64,000 bases of DNA from Hyunsoonleella pacifica (GTDB lineage Bacteria > Bacteroidota > Bacteroidia > Flavobacteriales > Flavobacteriaceae), in the NCBI RefSeq assembly GCF_004310335.1, contig NZ_SIRS01000003.1, positions 434,001 to 498,000 of the forward strand, in the 5' to 3' direction. Shown here in pieces: positions 56,909-59,840 of the stretch (positions are counted from its first letter, which is position 1; every line of letters starts with the position of its first letter). The translations under genes and the position numbers were made by a program. Under the pieces are notes generated by a model. That model worked only from the letters and a program-made list of their open reading frames with translations. It was not told where the DNA came from and did no database searches.

Positions 56909-57643
56909 TTGCAAATTCCTTTTGAACCCCAATTATTCGGTTATAACATAAACATTCACTTGGTTTTAGAGTATTTGGCGTTCTTTTTGGCGTTTCGCTA
57001 TTATGTGGTATTACGCCGAAAAAGTAAAGACCATATTTCATCCAATAATCGTTTATCTATTATACTTGGAGCTGCTTTAGGCGCATTAATTGGTTCTCGC
57101 GTAGTTGGCATTTTAGAAAATCCTGCTTTTGAATGGTCGCAACACAATATAATTCAACTACTAAACACCAAAACCATTATGGGTGGATTATTTGGTGGGC
57201 TTTTGGGGGTTGAGCTTGCTAAAAAATATATTGGTGAAACCCAATCGTCTGGGGATTTGTTTGTATTTCCTATTATTTTGGGGATTTTTATTGGACGTAT
57301 TGGCTGTTTTTTATCGGGCATTAATGAATTTACTTATGGTAAGGAAACCTGTTTTTTTACTGGTATAGATTTAGGTGATGGTGTATTGCGACACCCGACT
57401 TCTTTGTATGAACTGGTGTTTTTGGTTATGCTTTTCTTTGGTTTGAAGTGGCTTCAAAAACATCGCCAATTACCAAATGGCGACCTGTTTAAATGGTTTA
57501 TGGTTCTCTACTTCGGATTTCGATTCTTCATTGAATTTTTAAAACCTAATGTGTTTTTTGTGTTTGGATTGAGTACGATTCAAATTTTATGCGTAGTTTG
57601 TTTCCTCTATTACAAAAAAACTTTGATATTTTATTCAAAATAA
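56909..57643 (+). CDS. Lgt-like membrane protein lacking the catalytic His
   Basis: A 244-residue, multi-helix protein homologous to prolipoprotein diacylglyceryl transferase; start TTG 56909 (no ATG before the first helix). Conserved relative to E. coli Lgt: Arg130 (R143) in IGRIGCF, Tyr201, Arg205 and Glu209 (Y235/R239/E243) in YFGFRFFIEF, and RHPTSLYELVF. Lost: the His of HGGLIG (H103) is Met91 in TIMGGLFGG, and Asn146 is Cys133. It is shorter than normal Lgt. It is therefore a paralog that may use a different lipid or acceptor, or be inactive. A 12-base gap to the next gene indicates an operon with the small membrane protein. Confidence 0.78.
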   Translation: MQIPFEPQLFGYNINIHLVLEYLAFFLAFRYYVVLRRKSKDHISSNNRLSIILGAALGALIGSRVVGILENPAFEWSQHNIIQLLNTKTIMGGLFGGLLGVELAKKYIGETQSSGDLFVFPIILGIFIGRIGCFLSGINEFTYGKETCFFTGIDLGDGVLRHPTSLYELVFLVMLFFGLKWLQKHRQLPNGDLFKWFMVLYFGFRFFIEFLKPNVFFVFGLSTIQILCVVCFLYYKKTLIFYSK

Positions 57644-57655
57644 AAAACAATATCT

Positions 57656-57856
57656 ATGGAAAACATATCAACTATACTATTGGCTGTAGTGCTCTTTTTA
57701 ATTATTACGCTTCTATGGTGGAAGCTTACTAATAGGTACGTTAAAAAAATACATGGCAAAAAGATGTTTAATCAATGGGGAACCAGAATGTTTTACTGGA
57801 CTGGCAGCATAATGGTTAGTGGACTTCTTACCGTATTCGTATTAAAGCTTTTTTAA
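57656..57856 (+). CDS. Small two-helix membrane protein
   Basis: A 66-residue protein with two hydrophobic segments (about residues 4-25 and 45-65) joined by a basic loop (NRYVKKIHGKKMFNQWG). I do not recognise the family. It lies 12 bases after the Lgt-like gene and 167 bases before the radical SAM gene, with the inverted repeat 57925-58003 between, so it belongs to the Lgt-like transcript. Confidence 0.65.
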   Translation: MENISTILLAVVLFLIITLLWWKLTNRYVKKIHGKKMFNQWGTRMFYWTGSIMVSGLLTVFVLKLF

Positions 57857-57924
57857 TAACAAAAAAGCTAGATTATATCATTTGCAAACATACCAGTGTT
57901 AGAGATTAAGTAAGGGAAGTCCCT

Positions 57925-58003
57925 CCTAACCCCTCCAAAGGATAGGAACTAAAACCTGTAAAACAAACCAATCCGAGTATTTCCCTCCTTTGGAGGGGTT
58001 AGG
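57925..58003. repeat. 18-bp inverted repeat (CCCCTCC family)
   Basis: CCTAACCCCTCCAAAGGA at 57925-57942 and its exact reverse complement at 57986-58003, with 43 bases between. The core AACCCCTCCAA is shared with 10479-10507. Situated between the small membrane protein and the radical SAM gene. Confidence 0.7.
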
Positions 58004-58023
58004 GGAGGCTTCAAAACTAAACT

Positions 58024-59418
58024 ATGCCAACAAGAAAATATACGTATTACGATTTTACCCTGAGCTTGTGCCCTGAGTGTTTACAGCGTGTGGATGCGAA
58101 AATTGTGTTTGAAAATGAGAAGGTGTATATGCTGAAGCGTTGCGCGGCGCACGGGAATTCTAAGGTGTTGATTGCGGACGATATTGACTATTATAAAAAC
58201 ATACGGAACTACAATAAGCCGAGTGAAACGCCGTATACGTTTAACACGAAAACGCATTATGGGTGTCCGTATGATTGTGGGTTGTGTCCAGACCATGAGC
58301 AGCACTCCTGTCTTACGGTGGTTGAGGTTACGGATCGTTGTAATTTAACTTGCCCTACTTGCTATGCGGGGTCTTCGCCAACTTATGGGAGGCATCGTAC
58401 TTTGGAAGAAGTCAAAGAGATGTTAGACACCATTGTGAAGAATGAAAAGGAACCTGATGTGGTGCAAATTTCGGGCGGGGAACCGACGATTCATCCACAG
58501 TTTTGGGACATTCTAGATTATGCAAAAGCGTTGCCTATTCGGCATTTAATGCTAAACACCAACGGGATAAAAATTGCCAAAGATTTTGAGTTTGCAAAGC
58601 GTTTAAAAACATACTCGCCCGATTTTGAGATCTATTTGCAGTTTGATTCTTTTGAAAATACCGTATTGCAAGAATTACGTGGTGCGGATTTATGGGATAT
58701 TCGTGCGCAAGCTCTGGAAAATTTGAATTCGCTGAATTTGTCGACAACCTTGGTGGTAACACTTCAAAAAGGCTTGAACGACCATGGGATTGGAAAAATA
58801 ATCAACTTTGCGCTACAACAAAAATGCGTGCGAGGGGTAACCTTTCAACCTACACAAATTGCAGGACGTTTGGATAATTTTAATCCCGAAACCGATAGGA
58901 TGACGCTTACCGAAGTGCGCCGTAATATCATGGAGCAAACTGATATTTTTACCTCAGACGACTTATTGCCCGTGCCTTGTAATCCTGATGCTTTGGTTAT
59001 GGGGTATGCTTTAAAATTGGATGGTGAGGTGTTTCCATTAACTCGCTATATCAACCCAAACGATTTGCTGGACAATAGTAAAAACACCATTATTTACGAG
59101 CAAGATGAGCAACTGCATGGGAAAATGATTGAACTGTTTAGTACAGGAAACTCCGTTGAAGTTGCCGAGGAAAACTTAAAAAGTATTATGTGTTGCCTAC
59201 CAAATATTGATGCGCCAAACTTAGGGTATGATAATTTATTTCGTATTATTATCATGCAATTTATTGATGCTTACAATTTTGATGTGCGCGCTATAAAAAA
59301 ATCCTGCGTACATATTGTAGATAAGAACAACAAGATTATTCCGTTTGAAACTATGAACTTGTTGTATCGGGATGATAATCGGGAGCGTTTAGAGAAACTC
59401 AAAAAAGAAAGCACATAA
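58024..59418 (+). CDS. Radical SAM protein resembling tetraether lipid synthase (Tes/MJ0619 family)
   Basis: A 464-residue protein. N-terminal Cys16, Cys19 and Cys40 (LCPECLQ ... KRCAAHG) fit a rubredoxin-like iron site; CPYDCGLCPDHEQHSC (Cys81, 85, 88, 96) fits an auxiliary Fe-S cluster; CNLTCPTC (Cys106, 110, 113) is the radical SAM cluster and SGGEPT (150-155) the SAM-binding motif. More Cys occur near the C-terminus (PCNPDALVMGY, SIMCCLPNID). This Cys layout is the one I associate with archaeal Tes, which couples lipid tails. The first third is visibly richer in G and C than neighbours. It heads a three-gene unit with two small membrane proteins. Confidence 0.78.
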   Translation: MPTRKYTYYDFTLSLCPECLQRVDAKIVFENEKVYMLKRCAAHGNSKVLIADDIDYYKNIRNYNKPSETPYTFNTKTHYGCPYDCGLCPDHEQHSCLTVVEVTDRCNLTCPTCYAGSSPTYGRHRTLEEVKEMLDTIVKNEKEPDVVQISGGEPTIHPQFWDILDYAKALPIRHLMLNTNGIKIAKDFEFAKRLKTYSPDFEIYLQFDSFENTVLQELRGADLWDIRAQALENLNSLNLSTTLVVTLQKGLNDHGIGKIINFALQQKCVRGVTFQPTQIAGRLDNFNPETDRMTLTEVRRNIMEQTDIFTSDDLLPVPCNPDALVMGYALKLDGEVFPLTRYINPNDLLDNSKNTIIYEQDEQLHGKMIELFSTGNSVEVAEENLKSIMCCLPNIDAPNLGYDNLFRIIIMQFIDAYNFDVRAIKKSCVHIVDKNNKIIPFETMNLLYRDDNRERLEKLKKEST

Positions 59419-59421
59419 ATT

Positions 59422-59619
59422 ATGTTTTTAATTGAACTTGATGGTTTAGGACTCCTTATTTTATTATGGCTTTTTGTTGCCTTCGGAGTTCCTTTGATTC
59501 TGCTAATTATTGGAATTTCTTTGAGAAATAAAAACAAGAAAAAATCAAAAGGCCTTCTTATAGCTGCTGTGGTTTATATTTTAATTGGCTTAGGCATTTG
59601 TGGAAGTATGATGATTTAA
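59422..59619 (+). CDS. Small two-helix membrane protein, tandem paralog 1
   Basis: A 65-residue protein: hydrophobic helix, a basic turn (RNKNKKKSKG) and a second helix ending YILIGLGICGSMMI. It begins 3 bases after the radical SAM stop and is clearly related to the next gene (both have the LLxIIGxxxRxKNKK core, AAVVYILI/AAVYLII and LGICG). No known family recognised. Probably a membrane component of the unit. Confidence 0.65.
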   Translation: MFLIELDGLGLLILLWLFVAFGVPLILLIIGISLRNKNKKKSKGLLIAAVVYILIGLGICGSMMI

Positions 59620-59630
59620 AAAATTTCAAT

Positions 59631-59840
59631 ATGATTTTTCTTTTAAGCCCAAATATGGATTTTACAGGGTTGTTCATTATAATTTTGCTGATAATGTTTG
59701 GGCCTGCTATTTTATTGACAATTATTGGGTTCGCTGTTCGAGGTAAAAACAAAAAAGCAGCTAAGGTATTGTTTATTATTGCTGCTGTATATCTTATAAT
59801 TAGCTTAGGTATCTGTGGTGCTTTGGTTGCGGATTTTTAA
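59631..59840 (+). CDS. Small two-helix membrane protein, tandem paralog 2
   Basis: A 69-residue protein from the ATG at 59631 (MIFLLSPNMDFTG), 11 bases after paralog 1. Shares IIGFAVRGKNKKAAKV and AAVYLIISLGICGALV with it, so the pair arose by local duplication. Its last 36 bases overlap the 3' end of the DUF4345 gene on the other strand. Confidence 0.65.
   Translation: MIFLLSPNMDFTGLFIIILLIMFGPAILLTIIGFAVRGKNKKAAKVLFIIAAVYLIISLGICGALVADF

Follow-up and report, generated by a model that had tools for sequence, protein, structure and literature searches.

The closest described counterparts of the locus analyzed here are the Escherichia coli prolipoprotein diacylglyceryl transferase Lgt (PDB 5AZB), the archaeal radical S-adenosylmethionine (SAM) enzyme Tes, a tetraether lipid synthase also called GDGT-MAS (MJ0619, PDB 7TOL/7TOM), TrsS, an NCBIfam radical SAM (seleno)protein, and the signal helix of lipoproteins with its lipobox. 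In E. coli Lgt, every tested change of His103 and the substitutions R143A/E/K failed complementation (PMC4728403), and Asn146Ala kills activity (PMC8689077). The metal sites of Tes are spaced CX2CX20CX2H, CX3CX2C, and CX3CX2C (PMC9433317), and its Tyr459 is completely conserved across 1000 archaeal homologs. Bacterial homologs of Tes are known and are suspected of a part in the synthesis of branched glycerol dialkyl glycerol tetraethers (brGDGTs) (PMC8941075, PMC9433317, PMC11868695). In the open literature (subscription papers and preprints lay outside the search), we found no pairing of a Tes homolog with an Lgt-like gene or with a protein carrying a cysteine near its C-terminus. Such a set is present in a 64,000-nucleotide stretch of Hyunsoonleella pacifica (NZ_SIRS01000003.1, 434,001-498,000, forward strand; hereafter the window, to which all coordinates refer), where an Lgt-like gene, a radical SAM gene of the Tes/TrsS branch, and two genes for Cys-tail mini-proteins lie on one strand:

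56909-57643, forward strand: Lgt-like membrane protein, a GRxGC variant without the HGGL histidine; 244 amino acids, TTG start; recognized by PF01790, an AlphaFold model, and the residues invariant in 53 rows
58024-59418, forward strand: Tes/TrsS-branch radical SAM enzyme; 464 amino acids; rubredoxin-like, N-terminal cluster, and radical SAM cysteine sets; Cys319, Cys390/391, Cys428, Met411
59422-59619, forward strand: Cys-tail mini-protein 1; 65 amino acids, two transmembrane helices; conserved Cys60 (codon 59599-59601)
59631-59840, forward strand: Cys-tail mini-protein 2; 69 amino acids, two transmembrane helices, ATG start at 59631; conserved Cys62 (codon 59814-59816)

A preliminary description of this DNA had placed the genes at these positions, which proved correct. 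The conserved three-part set is almost certainly a real module; it is widespread and apparently undescribed so far.

Co-inheritance of the three components

Two samples of genomes, both drawn irrespective of the module, were surveyed: 120 genomes from the same family and 392 from across Bacteroidota. The radical SAM protein is carried by 17 of the 120 family genomes, H. pacifica included (79-100% identity), and the identical 17 carry the Lgt-like protein (approximately 58-100% identity); in all 17 intact carriers the two enzyme genes stand on the same strand and near each other, with reading frames that mostly overlap. Among the 392 genomes, 31 have both enzymes, one has only the Lgt-like protein, and four have only a radical SAM match (Fisher's exact test, relatedness ignored: P = 2e-40). 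One of these four (G213) proves on inspection to carry an Lgt-like gene upstream of the radical SAM gene, with a Cys-tail protein encoded in between. The enzyme genes are on different contigs in G151 and G381, so that co-occurrence does not depend on adjacency alone.

A scan of species genomes returned >580 relatives, of which the best 80, all Bacteroidota, were examined by name; this set is not unbiased because its members were picked by similarity. The Lgt-like gene is upstream on the same strand in 74 of the 80; of the six loci without it, three lie at the edge of a contig. The pairing is no chance arrangement, as it holds in 17/17 intact carriers and in 74/80 named loci. A protein of 54-123 amino acids with two or three predicted helices directly follows the radical SAM gene, likewise in 74 of the 80 named loci, most commonly with a 4-base overlap between the two genes. 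The named relatives include Tenacibaculum, Winogradskyella, Algibacter, Flavobacterium, Aquimarina, and Maribacter, as well as Lewinella, Hymenobacter, Chitinophaga, Mucilaginibacter, Pedobacter, and Apibacter, genera known mostly as aerobes. A profile of the short form of the mini-protein matches 17 of the 120 family genomes, namely 16 of the 17 carriers and one genome with a decayed module (G063), the 17th carrier having a diverged form; searched by this profile only, none of the 120 genomes has a further match elsewhere. Judged by sequence, the three components are lost jointly and inherited as a set.

The decayed module of G063 (L079, 6595-7048) lies between the same flanking genes and consists of pieces of the radical SAM gene, interrupted by stops, and the final part of a Cys-tail protein, a case of natural loss. 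The sample includes just one more genome of the Hyunsoonleella genus (G116), and it lacks the module.

The two enzymes compared with Lgt and Tes

The Lgt-like protein matches PF01790 with 94 bits (Pfam cut-off 24.9), and it scores 46 bits against NCBIfam TIGR00544 (cut-off 118.9), far below every Lgt equivalog cut-off. A second, canonical Lgt is encoded elsewhere in the H. pacifica genome (183 bits), so that the Lgt-like gene is a paralog and not the housekeeping enzyme. Its AlphaFold model (predicted local distance difference test, pLDDT, 91) has E. coli Lgt (5azb) as the sole significant fold match in the PDB (E = 6.5e-6, TM-score 0.60). Met91, Arg130, Cys133, Arg205, and Glu209, all listed in the preliminary description, were all seen. 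Arg130, Cys133, Tyr201, and Arg205, which correspond to E. coli Arg143, Asn146, Tyr235, and Arg239, are invariant in the 53 family rows aligned, and an acidic residue (E/D) is present at position 209 (E. coli 243) in 52 of them. No row has a histidine anywhere in residues 86-108 (0/53), and the His103 of the HGGL motif is thus absent; position 91 is V, M, I, L, A, or T. The protein shares with Lgt the fold, the Pfam family, Arg143, Tyr235, Arg239, GRxG, and RHPxxLYE, but His103 and Asn146 are replaced in every member and the equivalog scores are far too low.

The radical SAM protein scores best among NCBIfam profiles with TrsS (NF045646, 330 bits; cut-off 490), with which it aligns over its whole length, and next with Tes (NF045702, 291 bits; cut-off 450; 276 bits for a distant member), both scores being below cut-off; the first family outside the Tes/TrsS branch is MoaA with 57 bits. 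Among PDB sequences, MJ0619 Tes alone matches it at E <= 1e-5 (E = 1e-70), and the best fold matches of its model (pLDDT 75) are 7tom/7tol (approximately 1e-33), followed by SuiB (2e-10). Profile and structure thus both point to the Tes/TrsS branch and not to the sulfatase maturase or PqqE types, which the preliminary description had named as matches that would count against its reading. The cysteines at 16/19/40, 81/85/88/96, and 106/110/113, which it had recognized as a Tes layout, are invariant in 49 rows with the spacing of Tes: a rubredoxin-like CX2CX20CX2H (C16-C19-C40-H43), an N-terminal CX3CX2C (C81/C85/C88), and the radical SAM CX3CX2C (C106/C110/C113). The N-terminal motif is accompanied by His91 and His94, also invariant in the Bacteroidota module; this motif-plus-histidine feature is absent from actinobacterial-type members. 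Met439, a ligand of the labile cluster in Tes, aligns with Met411, which is at least 90% conserved and is Thr in the two most distant members. Top sequence and fold match, the three metal-site spacings, the N-terminal histidines, and Met411 are hence what the module enzyme has in common with Tes, but it is accompanied by an Lgt-like gene and a mini-protein. The module clade also has Cys319 and an additional CC at 390-391, and we infer from the sequences which of the cysteines would ligate the C-terminal cluster. The tree places both the module enzymes from Bacteroidota and those of the actinobacterial type outside the Tes/TrsS group (split support 91/76, with long branches).

The three remaining Bacteroidota genomes with only a radical SAM match (G183, G499, and G415; loci L159, L160, and L161) differ in that their proteins fall into the true Tes clade together with MJ0619, and their neighborhoods of 15-16 kb yielded no Lgt-like gene. 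These proteins are candidates for real bacterial tail-coupling enzymes.

A conserved cysteine in otherwise variable mini-proteins

The preliminary description had reported two small membrane protein genes preceded by gaps of 3 and 11 bases, and the window does contain these two tandem copies. The conserved C-terminal cysteine that makes such proteins the constant third component had been overlooked. Outside the region of this cysteine the mini-proteins are highly variable. A cysteine lies within the last 20 residues in 71 of 74 mini-proteins, against 10.7 expected from the cysteine frequency in the remainder of the same proteins (P = 7e-56, relatedness ignored), and it belongs to a motif, G/S-[LF]-G/S-x-C, at the outer end of the last helix. 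Positive charge marks the loop preceding this helix, and the tail that follows the cysteine is neutral, a pattern that is clear in the short form and weaker in the long form; by the positive-inside rule, the cysteine is therefore predicted at the periplasmic face. One to three small proteins per locus stand beside the radical SAM gene, and in Apibacter and in L150 and L151 (another family of the same order) the mini-protein gene is located between the two enzyme genes.

The mini-proteins resemble a lipoprotein signal helix in having a positive segment, a hydrophobic helix, and a small residue followed by cysteine at the outer face, but the helix is C-terminal, the small residues are at -2 and -4, and there is no mature domain downstream of the cysteine. 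The residue at -1 is G, A, or S in just 7 of 72 mini-proteins and another residue in 65. By the rules of the lipobox, a residue that is not small before the cysteine should prevent cleavage by signal peptidase II. The mini-proteins have no Pfam match above cut-off. The lipo-invert C-terminal domain NF058595 was considered and rejected (13 and 11 bits, with 37 needed), because this profile gives weak background matches in 144 of 148 genomes and none above cut-off.

Proposed function and its alternatives

The match to the Tes/TrsS branch, together with the strong conservation of the pairing, makes modification of the tails of a lipid or lipoprotein, as the preliminary description had suggested, the leading inference. 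We propose, with a probability of roughly 0.45, that the module is a three-component membrane-lipid modification system in which the cysteine of the mini-protein is lipidated and lipid tails are modified or coupled. That the module acts on a lipid is probable. Whether the cysteine is the lipid acceptor is close to an even question, which we would answer slightly in the negative, and carbon-carbon coupling of two tails by the radical SAM enzyme is possible but somewhat doubtful. Under this proposal, the Lgt-like enzyme would, going by its family, bind a glycerophospholipid at the Arg130/Tyr201/Arg205 site, accept the last helix of the mini-protein as Lgt accepts a lipoprotein signal helix, and transfer the lipid onto the thiol of its cysteine. 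Signal peptidase II would be blocked by the bulky residue that precedes this cysteine, so that the helix would remain a permanent anchor. The radical SAM enzyme, acting like Tes from the cytoplasmic side, would abstract hydrogen from unactivated C-H positions of lipid tails and couple or otherwise modify them, perhaps iso-branched tails, the ends of which resemble those of phytanyl chains. Iso-branched tails are common in Bacteroidota. The end product would be a small membrane protein bearing a modified or tail-linked lipid. In favor of the proposal are the co-occurrence and gene order of the parts across the phylum and on mycobacterial plasmids, the confinement of the mini-protein profile to genomes with the module or its remnant, the cysteine motif with its positive loop and neutral tail, the Lgt fold with its conserved phosphate-site residues (functions from PMC4728403 and PMC8689077), and the closeness of the radical SAM protein in sequence, fold, and metal-site spacing to Tes, which couples lipid tails.

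Several observations weigh against this proposal. His103, the proposed general base of E. coli Lgt and essential there, is missing and Asn146 has become Cys, so the Lgt-like protein may have lost lipid transfer or may use a different acceptor. The missing histidine is the chief difficulty: the thiol would have to be activated by some other group, Cys133 would participate directly, or lipid would be bound without transfer. The mini-protein motif is not a lipobox, being bulky at -1. The position of Tes Tyr459 is occupied by Ile431, invariant in the alignment of module enzymes, and the C-terminal cysteines differ, with RCC and PFC in Tes vs. KSC and PFE in the module clade (SC..PFE plus C319 and C390/391 where Tes has CC..PFC). 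With its score below the profile cut-off, the radical SAM protein is, by these sequence features, not a Tes, and to this extent the earlier suggestion has to be amended. The active site of the radical SAM enzyme should be cytoplasmic and the cysteine is predicted to be periplasmic, so that a shared substrate would require a lipid that can reach both sides. Matches to phosphatidylglycerol-phosphate synthase in the H. pacifica genome are weak, and phosphatidylglycerol synthesis there is uncertain; phosphatidylethanolamine is the sole major phospholipid reported for Flavobacterium johnsoniae, according to a statement quoted in PMC10025309. Nonomuraea has both enzymes and no obvious Cys-tail protein. 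The module itself is well supported; its product and its chemistry are proposals.

The lipid might instead be a free one. Free phospholipids are what Tes and the Tes fold act upon, a part in brGDGT synthesis has been suggested for Tes homologs of bacteria (PMC8941075), and iso-C15 acids are abundant in Flavobacterium (PMC10025309). All this would suit a pathway in which membrane-spanning or cross-linked lipids arise as the radical SAM enzyme couples or modifies the tails of free phospholipids; the Lgt-like protein would provide or change a glycerolipid, and the mini-protein would be no more than a scaffold or membrane dock with a structural or redox-active cysteine. We consider this unlikely, as it leaves unexplained both the one fixed cysteine at the outer end of the helix and the tandem copies of the mini-protein. 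Still less probable is a dead Lgt-like protein that serves as a lipid-binding receptor, with Cys133 and the mini-protein cysteine recruiting the radical SAM enzyme through a disulfide, a metal site, or covalent assembly: the loss of His103 and the new Cys133 in the central site, invariant in 53/53 rows, would be accounted for, but Arg143, Tyr235, Arg239, and the acidic residue at 243, which are needed in Lgt, stay fixed, and this is unusual for a dead enzyme.

Peptides are substrates of many radical SAM enzymes, peptide maturases are among the structural neighbors that rank after Tes, and one to three small proteins adjoin the enzyme at each locus. The mini-protein could accordingly be a precursor in which the radical SAM enzyme installs a residue cross-link or another change while the Lgt-like protein attaches or places a lipid. 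Such maturation is improbable, given that the conserved unit has no leader, peptidase, or exporter, that the last helix lies in the membrane with cysteine alone strictly kept, and that fold and cofactor layout are Tes-like (1e-33 vs. 2e-10 for peptide maturases). In its fullest form, our proposal of lipidated mini-proteins would describe a new class of lipidated membrane proteins in ordinary aerobic bacteria, with a cysteine of the C-terminal helix lipidated by an Lgt variant lacking the histidine and the tails then joined or cross-linked by a Tes-branch radical SAM enzyme; this full form is rather unlikely.

If true, the proposal would assign a role to a large group of Tes homologs in bacteria, hitherto regarded as possible producers of the membrane-spanning lipids on which palaeoclimate work draws, and we know of no earlier link between thiol lipidation of the lipoprotein type and radical chemistry on lipid tails. 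Counting Tes homologs that stand beside an Lgt-like gene, in Bacteroidota and mycobacteria, as tetraether synthases may be wrong. The chemistry aside, the module is a testable three-gene system in many genera, for which the visible RefSeq labels are only generic (transferase, hypothetical, radical SAM).

Occurrence on mycobacterial plasmids

Bacteroidota were surveyed through genomes; occurrence in other phyla rests on plasmid records. All three parts of the module are present on plasmids of Mycobacterium branderi and M. avium, where RefSeq calls the products prolipoprotein diacylglyceryl transferase family protein, hypothetical protein, and radical SAM protein. The Lgt-like gene of these plasmids encodes GRxGC and no histidine in the HGGL region, the radical SAM gene belongs to the Tes branch, and the small proteins end in G-x-C-TGLNP. 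The last helix of the mycobacterial Cys-tail proteins (L284:4220-4501, L284:4699-4989, and L279:5636-5989) resembles Mycobacteriophage_TM (PF24191), with matches that are weak and below threshold and that recur (E = 0.004-0.016).

Related radical SAM genes on plasmids of Mycolicibacterium and Haloarcula have a methyltransferase gene as neighbor in place of the Lgt-like gene. We take these for members of the TrsS branch, from which the module enzyme differs in this neighborhood as well as in its score below cut-off.

Intervening and neighboring sequences

Two further features separate the enzyme genes in the window:

57656-57856, forward strand: open reading frame for a two-helix protein without cysteine; 66 amino acids; a local insertion in a few close relatives
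57916-58012, no strand assigned: inverted repeat with 27-nucleotide arms (57916-57942 and 57986-58012); four genomic occurrences of the arm sequence

The preliminary description had counted the two-helix protein as part of the block. The Lgt-like, radical SAM, and small membrane proteins keep that place, but the 66-amino-acid reading frame was rejected as a component, being local to a few close relatives; Algibacter marinivivus (L199) and another flavobacterium (L206) also have it between these two enzyme genes. The inverted repeat stands between the Lgt-like and radical SAM genes, which in most relatives overlap. Given the four genomic copies of its arm, it has the look of a small dispersed repeat by which an otherwise overlapping gene pair has been split. 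In Hymenobacter, Lewinella, and others, the genes that intervene between the two enzyme genes are mutually unrelated and were likewise rejected as components, and dusB, lepA, and other neighbors were ruled out as partners, as the module occupies varied contexts. The two most distant members in the phylum have an additional gene between the radical SAM and Lgt-like genes (L157:4784-5377 and L156:8271-8951), and the one in L157 looks, by its sequence, like a membrane protein of the isoprenylcysteine methyltransferase type.

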